Of a stretch of 64,000 nucleotides of DNA, positions 32,231 to 43,718 are shown in pieces. A program made the position numbers and the translations under genes. The stretch spans positions 124,001 to 188,000 of the forward strand of contig VLTN01000025.1 of assembly GCA_008330645.1 (NCBI GenBank). The letters run 5' to 3'. This DNA comes from Cafeteria roenbergensis (Eukaryota; Sar; Bigyra; Bicosoecida; Cafeteriaceae). The notes below the pieces were generated by a model that was not told the DNA's origin, did no database searches, and saw only the letters and a program-made list of their open reading frames with translations. Numbering within the stretch: the stretch's first letter is position 1; each line of letters begins with the position of its first letter.

Positions 32231-35200
32231 ATGTCTGGCATCACGGGCCTTGTGGTTACGCATGCGGGTCTGGCGCCCCCCGGGTACACGAGGACGGCCG
32301 TGGTGGCGGCAGGAGGCTCGGAATCCACGGCGACCGTCTGGACGACCAAGCTGCCGGGCAAGGACGGCAGCCTCGAGCCCCTCGTGCAAATCGACGTGAT
32401 CATCGGCGACCCGGCGGCTGCGCCTGCGGGGTTCAGCGTTGCTGACATCAGTGTCACGCGCGAGCCTGCCGCGCCGGCCTTCCTTGCCTTTCGCCGCCGC
32501 GGCACCGCCGAAGAAAAAGCGCCCATTACGGACCTTGCGCTCGATACTCCGGACACGCCCGCGCGTGAGTTGCTCCCCCCCCGCGCGCTGCCGGCGGAGG
32601 AAAGCGCGCCGGAATGCCTATTGCGGAATGGAGGGCGGATGCGCGGCGTCTCACCCGGCGGCTGCGGGCGCGGGTCTGCCTCGGTCTGCATGGCGGCCGC
32701 GCGGAAAAAGCAAAAAATGCCTCGGCGGTGGCGCCGCCAGCAGGCGCCCGCCTGAGGGGCCTAGCGGTCCCCGCGCCCCCCGCCTGCGCAAGACCTCGCA
32801 ATTCGAGGCCTTGCCGTCCTGGAAGCCGCCGCTGCTCTCCCGCCGCGGCCGCCCGCGGCGCGGAAAGGCTTTGGTGTCATTCCAGCACTCTCGGGCAGAG
32901 CTGCGATCTTGCGCTTGCAAGCTTCGCCCTTGCGCTCTCTCTCCCTCCAACCGCTTGCGTTTGGCTCCTTGGTCGCCGTGCCCCTCGTTCGATCGACCGC
33001 AGCCGAGGGCTATGCCGTCCTGGAGCCGCCCCTGATTTCGGGTGACGCGCGGATTTCCCTGGCCGTCAGATTCCAGCAGCCAGGTGAGCCACGAGCTATG
33101 GGCTGCACGGCCCGGCCCGCGCGCTTGCCCTCGCCCACGGCCCAAGACGAGCGCGTGTCGCCCATAACGCGTGTCATACCGTGCTTGCCGCACCCCGCCG
33201 CGACGCCGCAGGCGACAAGCCCGATTGGTTTGGGGAGTCTGTCGCCGTCGGCGACAAGGTTGACGCCCAGAACCGCAACGGCGTGTGGTGGAAGGGTGAA
33301 GTCGTGGAGGTCACGCGGCACGACGTCGTGGTGCACTTCGACGGCTGGGACAAGCTTCACGACACCTTCGTGCCAAAGCGCTCCGACATGATCGCCCCGT
33401 ATGACACCGAGACGGAGGGCGTCGACACCCGCGGCACCATCACGGCCGACGCGGAGTTTGAGGTGTCTGAGGAGTCCCTTCGCCCCTACGTCGAGAAGAT
33501 CGACTCCATCATCTCTCGCGAGGCCTCTCCAGCCGAGAGCGTGAGCCAGTCTTCCCGCGCCCCGCGTGTCCCAGTCGCATCGCTTCTCGCAGCCGTGCTC
33601 GCCACACGCTCGTCGTTGCTGAGCCTGCGCCACCGTCTAGTTGCTTAGCGTCCACCCAGTCGCCCCTTCGCTCCCTGCCCCTCGCCGCACAAACCGTTCT
33701 CCCGCCCCTCCGGAATATTCGCAGGAGCTGTTCATCCGCCGAGACTTGAGCGACTGCGTGGCCCAGGTGCTCTCCCTGAAGCTTCCTGAAGAGGTGCATC
33801 CGGCCGTGAACAGCTTTGTGCGCGCCGTGATCCGCCTCTGCTGCTTCTACCTAGCGACTCACCCGTTGGAAGAGAAGCTGCCGTCCGCCATTATGGTGCA
33901 GCTCAACCGGGTGTTCCTCGGCGACGACCGCTGCAACACCTTCTTCACGGACACCTGCCACGCAATGCGCGGCGACGTGGCAGACGCAGCCAAGTATGCC
34001 GGCTTTGCGGCCAAGCTGCCTCCCGGAGGAGCCTCGGTCATGTTTACGGAGAACCTCAACCACTTTTTCGCCTTCGGCGGCCACGAGCTGTTGATCCGGC
34101 GCATCGACGACGAGCGTGACCCCCTGCCCCTGGAAGAGCTCGCAGTGGTGCTTCAGGCATGCATCTACACCCCGTGGCGACTCTACAACAACGGCTGGGT
34201 GAAGCACGTGTGGCCTCGCATCGTCACCGCAGTGACCAACCGCCTCCAGCGCATGGACGAGGCGGAGCTGCGCAAGCACGACAAGGAGTCACTCCTGGCC
34301 AGGGGCGGTATCGCCCAGCTCCTTTCTTCGACCCACCGTGGGCTGCTCAAGCCCCAGATCGAAGCGCGGGGAGCACCCATCGCGAACCTTCCCGAGGCCC
34401 ACCCGGACCCGCTCCCGGTCGCCCTGCCAGGCGTTCTGGAGCGCACGTGGGCCGGGCTGGCTGCCAGGCAGCTGCGCGTCCCCTCGCTGCCCATCCGGCT
34501 CAAGGGCCTCACGTACGCCCGCGAGCTCGTGCGCCTCGTGAGCTCCGCTGAAGGAGCAGGCGCGGCAGACGACCTGGACGACGACGACGACGGCTTTGGG
34601 CAAGGTGGGAGCAGCTCCTTCAGCTACCTCGGCGGAGGCGTGGGCGGCTACGGCGGCGGCTACGGCAGCGGCTACGGCGGCAGCTACGGCGGCAGCTACG
34701 GCCGCATTGGCGGTCGCTCCGGCTACGGCAGCAACTACGGTTACGGCGGGCGGGGCCAGAGCACGTATGGCGCCCCTAAGCCGCAGTTCTTCACAGGGCC
34801 GACGCTTGCGGAGTTCTTCGACAAGGCGAACGTGGTGCAGGCGGTGCTCGGGCAGGTGGACGAGAACCAGGACGCTGATCTGCACGCCATCTTGGAGCGT
34901 GCAACGCCCGACTCCGACGTCGTGCCGCTTTCCAGCCTTGCCCCGTGCGCTACCGCTGAGTGGGAGGCGGACATGATCAAGGGGGTGCTGCCGTTTTCCG
35001 AGGAGGACGAGGAGCTGGCCCGCGACCGCGTCAAGGCGCTGCTTGCTCACTCTGGTGTCTCCCCCGCAAAGGACGGCGGCGCCGAACCCCAGGCCGGGCC
35101 GACCGCTGCCGCATCTGGAGCAGCAGCTGCTGCTGCCGCGAGCAGTGCAGCAGGGGCGGCTGCAGCCTCGGCCGCCGGCCCTTCGGCAACCGCCGATGAT

Positions 35201-38200
35201 GCTGGCGCCTCGCACACCGGAGGCCGCCGCACCAAGAAGCGCGCTGGCAAGCTGGGCCCCCACGAGAAGCTGGTGGCTCCTTTGGCCGTGATCATGCTGT
35301 TCATGGCCAAGCACGGCGCGCTGCGCCGCAAGCACCTCGACGCGCTCTGGGCTGCCAACCCTGGCCCGAAGGACGAGTCCCTCCGCCGCGCCATCTTTGC
35401 GGCAGTTGGCCAGCTCTCGGCCCACTTGGAGGAGGAGATGCTCGGGGCGCTGTACGAGCGCATCACCGCCACGCCCCTCGATCAGCTCGACGACTCCACG
35501 ATGGACCTTGTCAAGTCCCTCAGCACCGCCGTCCTTGGCTCGCACGACACCGCTGCCGCTGAGGCCGCCTCCACCGCGGCCGAGCGCGCTGCCGAGACGG
35601 ACAAGCTGGAAGCCGCTGTGCACGGCGTCGCCCTTTACTGGCGCATCATCACCGCGTCGCCCGCCGCCGCCGTGCCCGCTGAGATCGTCGCAATGGCAAT
35701 GGACAACCTTGTGGAGCTCTGCGCTGGCGAAGGCGCCCTCTCCCGGCTCCTGCTGCGTCGCAACCTGCAGCGCTGCATTTCTCACATTGCCGAGGGCAAG
35801 TCCACGGCTCATGCCGCCGAGCTTGCTCGGCGCATCCTGGAGAAGGTGCCGGTCACTGCCGGGGGCGACGAGCCATTTGAGTTTGGCGAGAACGCGGCCG
35901 CCGACGCCGGAGCAGAGCTCGCTGCTGCTGCCGCCGCCGATGCAGACGCGGATGCAGGTGCAGATGCAGATGCAGACACAGATGCGGACGAGAACGCCAA
36001 GGCTGATGCTCCCAAGGCGCCGGAGTGGACTCGCTCGCGCGTGATTCAGTTGCTGCAGGAAGACGACGACGTCATTGGGCTGCTGCTCGCATCGCTGGAG
36101 AAGCTTCGCCTGGCCGCGGCCGAGAGCCTGGCAGCGGCCGGGATGTGCCCGGCCCACGAGGACGACGACGCAGCTGACCGCGAGGCAGAGGCCAGCATCA
36201 AGGCCGGGTCTGAGCCCTTTGCCGAGGGCGTTGCTCAGCGCCTTGCGTTCCTTGGCTTCCTCATCAATCAGAGCTCAGCCACGCGGCTCTCCACCGCGCA
36301 GTTCACGTTCCTGTGGAAGTCCTTCGTGGAGGCCAACGTCACCAGGCAGAGCCGCTCGCAGTTCTTCTCGTGGCTGACTGAGGCACAGTTTGGAACCACG
36401 GCCGGCAGCGGACTCATGAGCGATGCGGAGCTGCGCTCCGTGTTCGAGACCAAGTTCTGCAACGTCGAGTCCATGCGCTTTGCAGCGATGCGCGAGAGCG
36501 ACATGGGATGCATGCTCCGCTGCTTCCTCAAGGTCAACCTCGACAGCGGCAAGCTTGCGGGTGCGATGAGCGCCATCGACTCGATGCGCTCCAAGGTCCT
36601 GGACTTGGACGGCATGGACGCGCTGTGGCACGTTGCCACCGCAGCCTCGCACGAGCCCACCTGGCGCAGCGCCTCGGACATCATCGTTGGCTGCTTCATG
36701 AAGCTCCATCCTGTGGATGGGCCCTCTCCCGACGATGCGCGGAGCGCCTTCCTGGCGGAGATCAAGGAGCGGATCCGGAGCCCGGTCAAGCAGCTCGAGT
36801 GAGAAGCAACATCATTGCCCGCAGACATCTGTATTGGCAATTTTCGCTCGAGCAGGCACGCTTTTTGCAGGGGTGATCCTAGATGGTTCTGGGGGCGGGC
36901 TTCAAACCCGTGGGTGCAGCAATGCACAGGAGTTCAATTCTCCCTCACCTGCGCCCCAAGTTCTTTTTTTTTTTTTCTTCAAATGCTTCGCCTTTGTTTG
37001 TCGTGCTTGTTGTCGTGCTCGCTGCTCTCGGCTCGCACGCGCTGCGGCCCCTCTGTGCTCGTTGTGGCGGCTTGGTCACCACCACGAGGGTCTCCGTGTG
37101 AGCTCCCATTTCTGTTGTCGCCACTCTCTTGCGTCCACGAGCGTTCCTCGCAGGCTCGGCGATGCGACAGCAAACCAGGCGTTGCGCAGGCTGCTCGAGA
37201 CTCTGCGCGCTTTCCTGACGGCGCTGGACGAGAGCGGGCGCACGGCTGGCGACGCCGACATGCTGCTCGTGCCGACCGAGGTGCATGACCCCAACGACCC
37301 GCTGCAGTCGCGAGGCCGCGTGGTGCGTCGCCTCTACCTGCAGCTGTCTCGCTCTTCGAGCACCCTGCACGAGATGCGCGAGCGCCTCGCCTCCGCGCTT
37401 GGCCACGTCGCGTCCTACCTCCGTGTGGAGAACTTCCAGCACCGCTACTTCGAGTCGGTCACCAGCGAGTACTGCAATGCCCATGCGTTCAGCTGCGCCA
37501 ACGGCGTTCACGCTCTTCCCCACGACCTCGGAGACAAGACCACTGCTGCCCACAAGGACCGCCCCGACATGTATCCCCGTGCGTCGTTCCTTGACGACCC
37601 CGCCGCTGCGGAGCGGGTTCGCCCCATGGCACGCCTGACCCACGACCCCAAGCTCTTCGATGCACTCCTCTCCGTCGTGCGCGCGGGCGACGACGATACC
37701 GCGGACGTGGCGTGGGACCTCATCAGCTCGGTGCCCACCAACGTGGACGTGAAGCGCGCGGTGCGCTCCCTCGGCGGCGCCATCGAGCCGCGCGTGGAGA
37801 TCCCAGGAGAGATTCTCACCGATAGCGAGGAAGCCGAGGTGCTCGGACGCACGTCGGGGGTCGTTGAGGCTGCCAACGAGGCCAACGCTGACGCCGCAGG
37901 CGATGGTGCTGCAGCTGCAGCAGCGGCTGCCCCCGTCGCCCCGGCAGCCGTCGCGGCCGAGGGGTCCGTGGATTGGGCAAGCGTGCTCCCCGACGAGTCG
38001 CCGGAGTCGATGCTCTACAGCATTCGGCTGGTCCGCGCTCTGGCTCTGGCCAAGCGCGGCAACTGCGCCGTGCCTCGCACGCCGCCCCAGCTCGCCCGCG
38101 GCACGGTGGCCGCCGAGTTTAAGCACGAGATCTCGCATGTGGGCCTGCCGCCTGCCGAGCTCGAGGCGGAGAGCCGGCGTGAAGCCGCTCGCGCCCTTTG

Positions 38201-41200
38201 GGTGTCCACGTTCGTGGCGCAGGGCGGCCTCGGCCGGCTCATGGAGATCCTCACCAGCAGCGGCGGAGGCGGCGGAAAGGCCATGGGCAGCCGCCTCGGC
38301 CGCCAGGCAATGGAGTCCCTCCTCCGCATGGTCCTCTTCGTGACCACCAAGGTGGACGAGTCCGGCAGGGAGCTCGGGGTGCGCCCCATCGTGCCAGAGA
38401 TGCCCGTGGCCGCCTACCCCGCGTGGGTGCTCGAGCAGCTCGCGGCTGCCAAGGAGGCAGCTGCCTCAGGTGACAAGCACGCCGCGTCAGTCGCTCGCCT
38501 GCTGGCGCGTGTGGCTCGTAGCGTCAAGGCCGACACCATCGACGAGTCGGAGCTGGATTCTCAGGCGCCAGAGACCACCGAGTCTGCTGCTGGTGCCGAC
38601 GAGGACGACGAGGACACCGCCGGCGCGCAGGCCATCAAGGCCTCCGACGTCGAGGCAGGCCTCCAGTTCGAGCTGCACGGCGTGGAGGTGGACGACGAGA
38701 CGCTCGTCTCCCGACTGCTCCTCATCGTCAGCGAGGCCTCTGCGGCAGCCGACGTGGAGAAGGCCCGCCGTGACGCAGCCAAGGCCGCCCAGGCCGAGGA
38801 GGAGGAGGAGGACACGCAGGACACGCTCATCAACATCATGCAGCCCTCCAAGAACGCCACGCAGAAGCTGCCGGACCCCGAGGACCCCAGCCTGCACAAG
38901 TTCGAGGACGTGACGGTGGAGTCCCACATCACCCTGCATGCCCTCGAGCTACTTGTGCGCACCTGCATCGCCAGGCCTGCCGCGCTCTCCTTCCTCTACG
39001 CCAACAAGTCAGCCGTGGACAGCGTCCTCCGCCCCCTCATCGCCGCCGAGGAGCTCCAGATCCGCGACGTGGCCAAGAGCAACCTCCTCATCCTCGCGCG
39101 GGTCTTCCTCGGCAACCCGGCCCTTCTCCCCGAGGGCGTCGAGCAGCCCCGCGACTGGCTCCTGCGCAGCTTCTTCTCCCGCATCGGCGAGGGGTACCTG
39201 CATCCTCGCAACTGCTCGGAGTTCTACTCCCTCATTGCTGCGCTCATCACGCTGGTGCCGCCCGGCGCGACCGCGCCGCCCCCGCTCCCCGTGGACGGCG
39301 AGGCCGTGGCGGCCGATCTGGCTGCAGCGCTCAAGGCGCATCCGGTGGTGGAGGCCGCGCCCACGGACTCGGACGTGGTGCTTCGCGGCACCCTGCGCGT
39401 GATTCGCGCCCTCAGCACCAGCTCGCAGGCCCTCAGCCGCCGCCTTGGCACATCGGTGCCGGACGGCGGCCTGGGCGTGGTGGACGAGGTGTTCGAGCAG
39501 TGCCTCTTCTTCAAGCCTCCCCCCGACGCCCCCCCTGACGTGGTTCTCCCGCCCAAGTGCCGCTCGCTGCGCTCTCGCCGCGCCGCCTTCGCCGCTCTGC
39601 TTGGCCTTGCCTCTGGCAACACGGACAACGCCAGCTCGCTTCTGCGCTGCATTCTGCTCAGCGCCAAGGAGGCCGAGCAGGACGCCAAGGCAGGCACCGG
39701 TCCCGCAAGCAGTGCAGCCAGTGCTGCGGCGGCAGGCGCGGCCGGGGCCGTGGCGGACGCCTCGCGGCCGGACCTGTCGGACGTGCTGCTCTTCCCCGCT
39801 GGCGGCCCGTCGAGCGCGGCAAACTCTGATGCGGGCACCCGTGGCCGCCGCCGCAAGTTCGAGATGCTCTACGACGTGAAGAGCGCCACCGGCTACGCCG
39901 GCCTGGTCAACCTGGGCTGCATCTGCTACATGAACGCCTCCAACCAGCAGCTCTTCATGATCCCCGAGCTCCGCCGAGGCCTGCTCGAGTACTCCGTCAC
40001 GGCGCGCAAGCCCGAGGACTCGGTCACCCACCAGGTCCAGCGCATGCTCGCCAACCTCCAGGAGACGCAGCGCCGCGCCTACAACCCCCGCGGCCTCTGC
40101 ATGGCCCTCCGGGACTGGGACGGCAACCCCATCAACGTCATGGAGCAGCGCGACGCCTCCGAGTACCTCACGCAGCTCTTCGACAAGCTCGAGACGGAGA
40201 TGGCGGGCTCCAAGCAGGCCAGCATCATCAAGGACGTGCTGGGAGGCGAAACCGCCAGCGAGTTCATCGCGGACGGCGCCAGGATGTACCGCGCCCGGAC
40301 CACTCCCTTCTACTATCTCTCGGCAACGGTGCGCCACTACAAGTCGCTCGAGGAGTCGCTCCGCCGCGAGTTCGGCGCCGGCGACATGATGGAGGGATAC
40401 CGTTGGGAGGATGACAAGACGGAGGCCGACCTGGGCCGCTTCGATACCATCCGCCGCACCTCCCTGCGCAAGGGGCCGAAGCACCTCATCGTGCATTTCA
40501 AGCGCCTGGACATTGACGTCGAGCGCGGCATCCCCGTCAAGCTCAACTCCCGCTTCGAGTTCCCGCACCGCCTCAACCTGTGGCCGTACACCGTGCAGGG
40601 CCGCGCGGACGCGGTGAAGGGGCGCGAGGGCTCCCGCCGCGTCGTTGACCCGGAGGACCCCGCAACCCACGTGGCGCCCGGCAGCGAGGACGACTGCAAC
40701 GACTACGCCACCGACGAGGGGCCGGAGGACTTCGAGTACCAGCTGGTGGGCATGGTGATCCACACCGGCACGGCCACGTCCGGCCACTACTTCAGCTACG
40801 TGCAGGAGCGCGGGGCGGACGGCCCCACCGGGCGCTGGTTCGAGTTCAACGACCAGCACGTGGCGTCGTGGAACCCCGACCGCATGGAGGCGGACTGCTT
40901 CGGCGGCGAAGAGGAGTACACAGGCAACGGCTACTACGACTACAAGCGCGAGGGGACCTCGTTCAAGCGCACGTGGGTGCCCGGCCGCACCTACAAGCGC
41001 TCGCGCTACAACAACGCCTTCCTCGCAGTCTACGACAAGGTGCCACGCGACAAGGCGGCGGCCGCCGCGCCCGCCGTGGCGGAGGCAGGAGCAACCGCGG
41101 CCGCGTCCCGGTCCCCCGCCAAGCTGGCCCGCTCCTCCTCCCGAGTGGAGCAGGACCTCGAGACGGAAGTGGCCGCCTCGCTAGCAGCCTCTGCCTCCTC

Positions 41201-43718
41201 CACAGCCTCGGCGGCGGAGCTGGCCGCCGCATACGCCGCTCGCGTGACGTCCACGCAGTCGTCGAAGCGGTCGGCGCAGTCTGCTGCTCGCGTGCCGGTG
41301 CCCGAGCAGTTCCTCTCCGAGATCAAGGGCGCCGACCTCGCCCTCTGGCGCCAGCGCACCGCCGAGTCGCCCGACTACTTCAAGTTCATCCGGCGCCTTC
41401 TCGACGAGCTCACCAGCGCGTCGGCGGCGCCCCCAGCTGCCGCCGACTCTGCCGCCGACTCGGGCGCGGCTGCACCGGCCGCTCCCGCCTCCGCCTTGGC
41501 CACCCAGCTCGTGGACGCCGCCGAGGAGCTGGAGCGCGAAGAGGAGGACGAGGACGCTGTGGTGGACGCGGTGGTCGAGAACCCCGACTCGGACTCGGTG
41601 GCCATCAAGCCTGGCCCCGTCATCCCGCCGCCCGGCCCCCTTGCCGAGCCGCTCGCCGAGCCCACTGTTGGGTACCCCACCACCGCCATCACCAGCACCG
41701 CCGCAGCGGCCAAGCTCGGCGGAGCCGACGTCATTGTGGCTCAGCTCGCCATTCGCTTCACCGCCATCTCTCTCAACGCCTCGGACGGGACCGTGCGTGC
41801 GGACGCTCTCAAGTGGGTCACCAAGCTCACCGGCATCCTGCGCCGCAACGTGGTTGCCTGCGTCTGGCTCCTCAACGCCCTCAGCAGCGCCCGCTCCAAC
41901 CTCTCCGCCGCCCTTCTCGGGCACTCCGACTCGAAGCTGCGCGAAGGCTTCGCAGCCCTGGTGCGCATCGCGGTCCGCTCCGTCCTCAGGTACGAGACCA
42001 TCGACGGCACGGAGGAGCTCGCTGCTCTGCCGGCCGCCACCGGCGACGAGGCCGCGGCCTCCAGCAAGCCCTCGGACGAGGTCGTCGCCTCCGCGCTCGA
42101 GTCGGCCAGGCGCAACGCTCGCGCCCCCGCTGACGCCGACGTCACCCCCGAGTTTGCCGTCGAGCACGGCAGCTCTGTCCGTCGCCTGGCCGAGGCTTTG
42201 CTGGCTGAGCTGCCCTTCATCGGGAAGTTCGCCTCCAGCTGGAACCCCGTCTTCGGCATCCTGCAGGACATCGCCGAGTTTGGCGGACCGGGGGCCGCCG
42301 CCTTCCTGCTCGCTCGCGGGGCGGTGGAGGCCACCTGCGAGCTCGTTGTGGAGTCCACCCCGTACGCCAAGGTGTTCGAGGAGCTCGGCGACTTCTGCCC
42401 TGCTGACATTGTTGCCAAGGCGGCGCGGTCGCGGTCCAACTTCAACTCTGGGGAGCGGCTGGACGCCGCCGAGCAGGCCATCTTCCGCTCCAAGCCGAGC
42501 CGGGTGGCGGTTGGCGGCGAGTTCGACGCGTCCCTTCCCAGGGCGCTGATCCAGTCCCTCGTCTGCCGCTGCAAGCCTGTCTCCGGCAGCACGTCAAGCG
42601 CCCACCTGCTGCCCTTCACCAAGTGCGAGGCCGACGCCTCAGCGCTGCCTCTGCCCTCGATGGCTGCCCACGTCCTCTTCTCCGGCTCCTTCCTCACCCA
42701 CCTCGCCACGAAGCTCGCCTCGTGCGCGGAGCAGAAGGCCCTGACGCCCCTCTTCTCCCACCTCGTTTGGGGAACCGGGTCCGAGACCACGGACCTGCTG
42801 GCAAAGGTTGTGCGCGAGGCCCCGCAGGCCGGCGACTTTGACGGGTTCGATATCGTCCCCCTCCTCTGGGCCGTGCAGACCCTGGCCGAGGTCGCGGACG
42901 GCGACAAGGCCGGACCCCGCGCGCACGCCGTGCTGGACGCAGCGGTGGAGGCAGTGAAGCGCCTTTCAGCCGGCTTCTACCTCATCACCGAGCGCGCCAT
43001 CCGCGTCTTCTGCAAGCTGGCCGCTCGCTCCGACGTGGTGTTCGAGTGGTTCAAGGCCAACGCGGAGCGCGCCGGCTGGATGCTGGAGTGGCTGCTGGCC
43101 AACCCCATGAAGCCAGCCGTGCACGCTATCACGGGCATGCGCCTTGCCAAGAAGCCAAGCGTCGATCCGTCCGCTGTCGGAGGCTACCTGTGGCGGCCGC
43201 CTGACATGGTCCGCAACGCGAGGCGCCTGGCGGCCGGCGAGCGCCCGACCTTCACGCCCCGCGGCTTCGACGACGACGACCCCAACTCCGTCGTTGGCGG
43301 CAGAATCCGCATCTGCATCTTCATCGACGCCAAGCAGTCCAAGTTCAGGTGGCTGCGTGCTCGTGTGGTGGGCTTCATCAAGTCCCGGTCATTCCACCGC
43401 ATCGTCTACGATGTCGTGCCGGCCCCGCCGAGCAACCGCGTCCGCCTGGAGCACTTCCGCGTGCACCGCCTCGCGGACGACGCGCCGCTGATGACGCGCG
43501 ATGACCCACCCGCCACGGACGAGCCTGCCACGTTGCTTGGGGACCCCAACGACAACTCCCAGGACGGCGAAGGAGAGGACGCGCCTGACGCCGAGGAGGA
43601 GCCCGCCGCGCCCGCTCCGGCCACCGAGCCCGCCGCGGATCCTCGCAGAGACGGTGGCGACGCGCAGCCCTTGGACGGCGGTGACGCTGACTTTGACGAT
43701 GACGATGACGATGCCTGA
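32231..43718 (+). CDS. Giant USP-family deubiquitinase with MABP-like and Tudor-like N-terminus (five exons)
   Basis: 3460 aa cysteine protease that would cleave ubiquitin from proteins; USP9X/USP24/USP34-like. Exons 32231-32564, 33003-33083, 33212-33540, 33725-36798, 37154-43718; all four junctions keep phase. N-terminal ~140 residues resemble an MABP beta-prism (ITGLVV, AFLAFRR, PITDLALD, PEGYAVLEPPL). Next is a Tudor/chromo-barrel-like segment (VGDKVDAQNRNGVWWKGEVV). Long helical-repeat region follows, as in USP9X, broken by a Gly-Tyr-rich stretch (nt 34620-34770) and a Ala-Asp repeat (nt 35936-36000). Catalytic domain: Cys box NLGCICYMNASNQQLFMIP (Cys about 2197) and His box TSGHYFSY (His about 2484), then NDQHV. 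A second Tudor-like segment (WLRARVVGFIKS) and an acidic tail end the protein. The last intron hosts a tRNA gene. Confidence 0.88.
36867..36953 (+). tRNA. tRNA-Sec: Selenocysteine tRNA, anticodon UCA, nested in a deubiquitinase intron
   Basis: 87 nt with the eukaryotic tRNA-Sec shape. Acceptor arm of 9 positions (GCAGGGGTG with CTCACCTGC) with mismatches including U6-U67, which is also present in animal tRNA-Sec. Six-bp D stem (CCTAGA/TCTGGG) closing a four-base TGGT loop. Anticodon loop CTTCAAA with anticodon TCA. Long variable arm with stem GTGCA/TGCAC. T arm GGAG-TTCAATT-CTCC; discriminator G. It reads UGA as selenocysteine after charging with Ser and conversion by PSTK/SepSecS. An AT-rich patch (GTATTGGCAATTTT, 36831-36844) sits where a Pol III TATA element would lie, and a T run follows. 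Lies in intron 36799-37153 of the USP gene, same strand. Confidence 0.93.
36964..36976 (+). terminator. RNA polymerase III terminator (T13)
   Basis: Thirteen consecutive T residues begin 11 nt after the tRNA-Sec discriminator base. In this GC-rich sequence such a run is conspicuous and fits Pol III termination. It may also serve the host intron, whose acceptor lies about 180 nt further on. Confidence 0.8.

Follow-up and report, generated by a model that had tools for sequence, protein, structure and literature searches.

A selenocysteine tRNA gene within a predicted intron of a USP9X/USP24-like deubiquitinase gene of the stramenopile Cafeteria roenbergensis

In a 64-kb stretch of the genome of the bicosoecid stramenopile Cafeteria roenbergensis (assembly GCA_008330645.1, contig VLTN01000025.1, positions 124,001 to 188,000, hereafter "the window"), a gene for the selenocysteine (Sec) tRNA, tRNA-Sec, lies on the same strand as a gene for a large deubiquitinase of the USP9X/USP24 type, and within the predicted last intron of that gene. 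No second tRNA-Sec copy was found in the genome, which also carries genes of the selenocysteine pathway. The tRNA and the parts of its host gene are as follows.

36867..36953, plus strand: tRNA-Sec (UCA) with a 9/4 fold and G73 (ARAGORN; Rfam RF01852, 71.3 bits; fold read by hand)
36799..37153, plus strand: predicted spliceosomal intron, 355 nt, phase 2, GTGAG...CGCAG (codon potential and splice-site matrix)
32231..36798, plus strand: upstream predicted exons of the USP9X/USP24-like gene (32231-32564, 33212-33540 and 33725-36798; codon-model search)
37154..43718, plus strand: last predicted exon of the same gene, with the UCH catalytic domain (PF00443 and 7yxx matches)

ARAGORN calls a single tRNA in the window, a tRNA-SeC with the anticodon TCA at 36867-36955 on the plus strand. 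The Rfam match to RF01852 covers 36867-36952 (E 1.3e-12) and lies above the curated cut-off of 47 bits; no other Rfam family has a match in the window that reaches its curated cut-off. Read by hand, the 87 nt of the tRNA have arm lengths that fit a 9-bp acceptor and a 4-bp T stem. Seven of the nine acceptor positions form standard pairs, the other two being G.A (pair 6) and U.U (pair 8); the D stem has 6 bp and a loop of 4 nt (UGGU); the anticodon loop is CUUCAAA, on a stem in which five of six pairs are standard and the sixth, outermost pair is G.G; and the variable (V) arm, GUGCA-GCAA-UGCAC, forms 5 bp closed by GCAA. Santesmasses et al. (2017, PMC5330540), in the part of that paper available to us, report that G18, G19, U33, U55, C61 and C66, together with the anticodon and G73, are 100% conserved in 553 eukaryotic tRNA-Sec sequences with G73. 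When its positions are numbered by hand, the Cafeteria tRNA carries all of these. It thus resembles the eukaryotic tRNA-Sec of RF01852 in its 9/4 fold, UCA anticodon, 6-bp D stem, long V arm and G73, and differs in the non-standard G.A pair of the acceptor, being otherwise ordinary. An earlier note, made from the letters of the window, had described just such a tRNA (UCA, 6-bp D stem, 4-base D loop, long variable arm and 9-position acceptor), and the two programs and the hand-read fold bear this description out. The tRNA-Sec identity is likewise supported by the agreement of ARAGORN and Rfam on this sequence.

To place this gene in its genome, 36,303,456 bases in 167 contigs were searched. In the Rfam search for tRNA-Sec, the best 53 of 4467 first-look candidates were scored, and two matches had E <= 0.001, namely the copy in the window and a 35.8-bit match on a 43-kb contig, C167, which holds an AT-rich tRNA cluster and which we infer to be mitochondrial. 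The latter match is below the cut-off of 47 and is a tRNA-Ser(UGA) within that cluster, and it was rejected as a second tRNA-Sec. Two ARAGORN calls elsewhere, a "tRNA-SeC" of 115 nt (locus L046, 6481-6595) and a "tRNA-Phe" (locus L053, 885-981), were also rejected, being without Rfam support at E <= 0.5. Within the limits of this search and of the assembly, the gene appears to be single copy; the earlier note remarks that tRNA-Sec is usually so.

The host gene, at 32231-43718 in a small codon-based gene model, has a predicted protein of 3,433 residues, and the tRNA lies in its third and last intron. The upstream frame (33725-36796) matches PF25010, ARM_UBP24_USP9X-Y (2.9e-10), and residues 659-818 of the human USP9X chain 7yxx (phmmer, 1.8e-5). 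The downstream frame (37155-43715) matches PF00443, UCH (1.5e-43), and residues 1660-1959 of the same chain (phmmer, 1.3e-46). Because the two parts follow the order of one human USP9X chain, their order fits one gene, as the earlier note's giant USP gene would have it. The ARM region and the UCH domain are both present, in order and on one strand, and it is the predicted splice that would put them in one protein. The gene shares with the USP9X/USP24 family (human USP9X, PDB 7yxx and 5wch) an ARM region followed by a UCH domain, whereas it differs in the length of its predicted protein, in its low sequence similarity outside UCH, and in a weak N-terminal Agenet/MBT-like segment. This segment is found in the predicted second exon (33212-33540), at 20 bits against a cut-off of 27.

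The predicted intron reads GTGAGAAG ... CCTCGCAG, with a G directly after the junction, and its removal joins the upstream and downstream frames. In a codon model whose training sequence was taken from this gene at a distance from the junction, the upstream frame is positive to about 36800, and a different, downstream frame is positive from about 37140; between these points no frame is positive for long, the third frame reaching a slight 0.13-0.15 at 36930-37050. An alternative acceptor at 37189 (CGCAG) is also in frame, and both the loose and the strict codon-model searches chose it. In a splice-site matrix built from 15 other predicted introns of the same genome shorter than 300 nt, the acceptor at 37153 scores 9.3 bits and that at 37189 scores 5.0, and the 15 reference introns range from 5.6 to 13.7. 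Homology across the junction did not decide between the two, both versions giving 22.3 bits with an alignment that stops before the junction. From these scores, the acceptor is probably 37153.

The splice sites of this intron fit, by the same matrix, those of other predicted introns in the genome. The loose search, which allowed any GT...AG, was dropped for its many implausible introns, and the stricter version that replaced it imposed GTGAG or GTAAG and YAG, so that those letters are circular as splice-site evidence. The G at -4 of the acceptor was not imposed; it has a matrix value of 0.84 (the maximum with pseudocounts, 15 of 15), and it is present at 37153. A wider reference set of 22 other predicted introns, from the window and 18 of 20 fetched loci and in genes scoring at least 80, has a median length of 178.5 nt, and six of its members, the long ones among which may be mispredictions, are at least 355 nt long. 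The claim that the tRNA lies in a 355-nt last intron, on the strand of the USP gene, is thus upheld for a predicted intron by the codon-model frames and the splice-site scores.

Two further features flank the tRNA within the intron.

36827..36846, plus strand: AT-rich stretch from -40 to -21 relative to the tRNA, a weak candidate for a TATA-like RNA polymerase III (Pol III) promoter element (AT bins)
36964..36976, plus strand: T13 run, the presumed Pol III terminator (hand-read, after a 10-nt trailer)

In bins of 10 nt, the AT content upstream of tRNA-Sec is 0.7 at -40 to -31 and 0.6 at -30 to -21. The upstream regions of 14 nuclear tRNA genes (21 nuclear tRNA loci minus seven near-identical array copies on contig C47) average 0.67 and 0.69 in the same bins, against 0.34-0.36 at -80 to -51; for U6 the values are 0.5 and 0.8, and TTTAAATA stands at -30. 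The earlier note had also pointed out the T13 run, and no other run of T in the window is as long as 10; in the 45 nt that follow the tRNA, each of the 21 nuclear tRNA loci has 4 to 9 T in a row, and the run at U6 is T10. A sequence-specific proximal sequence element common to U6 and tRNA-Sec was looked for by eye only and is not established. The AT block and the T13 run suggest that tRNA-Sec is a Pol III unit of its own, and would fit a Pol III gene of the usual type for this genome, placed in an intron. Were the USP gene a single transcription unit, Pol III and RNA polymerase II (Pol II) would share the template. It should be mentioned that one U6 small nuclear RNA match was seen in the genome (L038, G000:C19:18604-18718, minus strand) among the best 47 of 1049 first-look candidates.

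The selenocysteine pathway was followed by profile searches of the same genome. Two parts of SepSecS were detected, at 236.4 and 140.3 bits; the first scores 275.7 bits against TIGR03531, over the cut-off of 224.85. The EFSec domain euk_SelB_III likewise came out as two parts, at 48.4 and 42.6 bits, both over the cut-off. The selenophosphate synthetase gene (SelD/SPS, SPS2) contains one in-frame TGA, in the context LKG*GCKV, which we take to be the usual Sec site of SPS2. Among four matches to glutathione peroxidase (GPx), one contains TGA codons, two in number: one stands in NTATY*GLT, presumably the active-site position, and the second is probably at an intron donor. The two matches to Rdx (SelT/W-like) are both free of in-frame stops over the matched part. 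On these matches, this bicosoecid stramenopile has selenocysteine genes, and the earlier statement that the organism makes selenoproteins is supported at the level of genes, by SepSecS, the EFSec domain and the UGA-containing SPS2 and GPx genes; PSTK and the selenocysteine insertion sequence (SECIS) are not established. Among the GPx loci, L065 (G000:C52:108513-108698, plus strand) is a GPx-like frame in which the Sec position of the active site is TGA, and a GPx-like match near it, L066, has Cys at that position.

Does the genome place other tRNA genes in introns? The best 63 of 405 first-look tRNA candidates were scored, of which C167 carries 15 and the nuclear contigs 48, and flanks were taken for 40 of the 48 nuclear matches, the other eight lying in mid-array. 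The two ARAGORN calls rejected above and the tRNA of L061, which repeats one of L060, are left out of the 40. The predicted introns of genes scoring at least 40 contain none of these 40, and the tRNA-Sec case is recovered when treated alike; this is no full census, being made on the best-scoring matches, and several array members lay close to an end of the examined stretch, which leaves a short flank on that side. Arrays of tandem tRNA genes with equal scores (Ala, Lys and Gly), spaced about 440-870 nt apart, were seen at G000:C1:365847-372736 and 513615-516535, C47:58995-63548 and C9:242525-243498.

The explanation that we consider highly probable is that a functional tRNA-Sec gene, apparently the single copy of this bicosoecid, is transcribed by Pol III and lies, in the direction of its host, in the last intron of a spliced USP9X/USP24-like gene that forms one piece. 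Pol III would transcribe the tRNA independently, from internal boxes and the AT-rich upstream element, and would stop at the T13 run. Pol II would transcribe the unit from end to end, and the intron would be spliced out, so that the tRNA would be without effect on the protein. The charged tRNA would then feed the SepSecS/EFSec pathway, in which UGA would be read and Sec inserted in SPS2, a glutathione peroxidase and similar proteins.

Several observations weigh against this explanation. The G.A and U.U pairs of the acceptor and the outermost G.G pair of the anticodon stem are non-standard. The human tRNA-Sec has U.U at the same place in its acceptor arm. The folding energy of the tRNA is by itself unremarkable (z -1.94, with 6 of 200 shuffles equally stable). 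Of the 14 other tRNA genes, 11 have a richer best AT octamer than the 6 of 8 seen upstream of tRNA-Sec within -45 to -18, two equal it and one falls below it, and AT upstream of tRNA-Sec also reaches 0.7 at -60 to -51. The copy count is bounded by the 53 candidates scored. No homology alignment spans the junction, and phmmer with the joined segment of 402 residues stops at residue 167, the junction being at about 196.

To the same side belong the gaps in the pathway. The PSTK profile TIGR03575 has no match in the genome, and TIGR03574, with a cut-off of 290.5 bits, matches two frames far below it, L039 at 41 bits and L040 at 23 bits. The L039 frame also matches KTI12 (126 bits), and L040, compared with the PDB, matched no PSTK structure and gave weak matches to AAA proteins only. 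SECIS elements were not found genome-wide by Rfam, a search that gave no match anywhere in 14 control genomes either, nor by simple rules applied to SPS2 and to L065-L067, three of the GPx loci. A candidate picked by eye at SPS2 was rejected, its fold not being that of a SECIS. As a separate observation, L040 (G000:C157:9581-10051) and L041 (C4:323157-323627) have equal scores and frame lengths (433 residues); the frame is that of a P-loop kinase and a weak PSTK candidate, and the pair is possibly a redundant contig.

If the two USP-like frames were separate genes, the tRNA would lie in an intergenic gap of 355 nt, and GTGAG and CGCAG would be there by chance. The junction without a spanning alignment would suit this, as would the stop of the unspliced upstream frame at a TGA (36800-36802) and an ATG in the downstream frame at 37260. 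On the contrary, an immediate TGA is expected in a phase-2 intron that starts with GTGA, the downstream-frame coding score is already positive near 37140-37170, ahead of that ATG, the junction keeps the frame with sites that resemble those of other predicted introns, and an ARM region and a USP9X-type catalytic domain stand in the order of one human chain. Two separate genes are thus very unlikely. A decaying or retrotransposed pseudogene would account for the non-standard pairs of both stems, and it has a precedent in the human intronic copy, tRNA-Sec2 (TRNAU2) in a PARVB intron, which lacks G73 and Pol III binding and was judged a pseudogene (Santesmasses et al. 2017, PMC5330540, in the part available). 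The Cafeteria tRNA, in contrast, has G73 and keeps all the positions reported as invariant, the T run and the upstream AT block are present, and no other tRNA-Sec was found although the genome has Sec genes; we hold a pseudogene to be very improbable indeed.

The main source of the tRNA might also be the Pol II intron after its excision, as for a mirtron or an intronic small nucleolar RNA, instead of Pol III transcription. It is on the host strand, its upstream AT element is the modest one described, and tRNAs spliced out of introns are named as a theoretical possibility in the available part of Sagi et al. (2016, PMC4999229). Set against this are the T13 run and the AT-rich block, which resemble those of other tRNA genes and of U6 in this genome. 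The tRNA-Sec genes studied in animals are, as far as is known, Pol III genes. We consider an intron-derived tRNA the least probable of these alternatives, and return to a Pol III gene within a spliced intron. That its placement is regulatory, the template and strand shared with a giant Pol II gene letting host transcription limit or license the supply of tRNA-Sec, with selenoprotein synthesis coupled to USP9X-like expression and the pairing selected across bicosoecids, seems unlikely.

The arrangement is a new instance of a known one, that is, of tRNA genes nested in introns, and not a new kind of system. As far as the available parts of these papers go, 44% of the 609 tRNA genes of Caenorhabditis elegans are intronic, 56% of these being on the host strand, and Pol III occupies intronic tRNA genes on the host strand less than those on the opposite strand (Sagi et al. 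2016, PMC4999229), while in Drosophila same-strand genes nested in introns are not treated as exceptional (FlyBase, PMC4528330). Because intronic same-strand tRNA genes are thus common in at least one well-studied eukaryote, the earlier note rated the finding too highly. The Cafeteria gene shares with the worm cases the position in a host intron, and with the same-strand ones among them the orientation; the worm cases studied, so far as the available text tells, are many-copy tRNAs, whereas here a tRNA-Sec for which no second copy was found is concerned, in a stramenopile. With Drosophila the likeness is same-strand nesting in an intron, and the available part of that source does not cover the location of tRNA-Sec. 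The functional human tRNA-Sec lies between FOSB and RTN2 (PMC5330540, available part). With human tRNA-Sec2 the likeness is a tRNA-Sec sequence within a spliceosomal intron; the human intronic copy is a pseudogene, whereas the Cafeteria intronic copy is the only one found. In the open-licence literature, which was partly covered and included PMC4528330 and PMC7549347, we found no report of a functional tRNA-Sec inside a host intron.

With one tRNA gene, no backup found, and one same-strand intron, this locus would offer a clean natural case of the effect of Pol II passage on Pol III output, in contrast with C. elegans, in which many tRNAs have further copies. The finding also indicates selenocysteine genes in a bicosoecid stramenopile.
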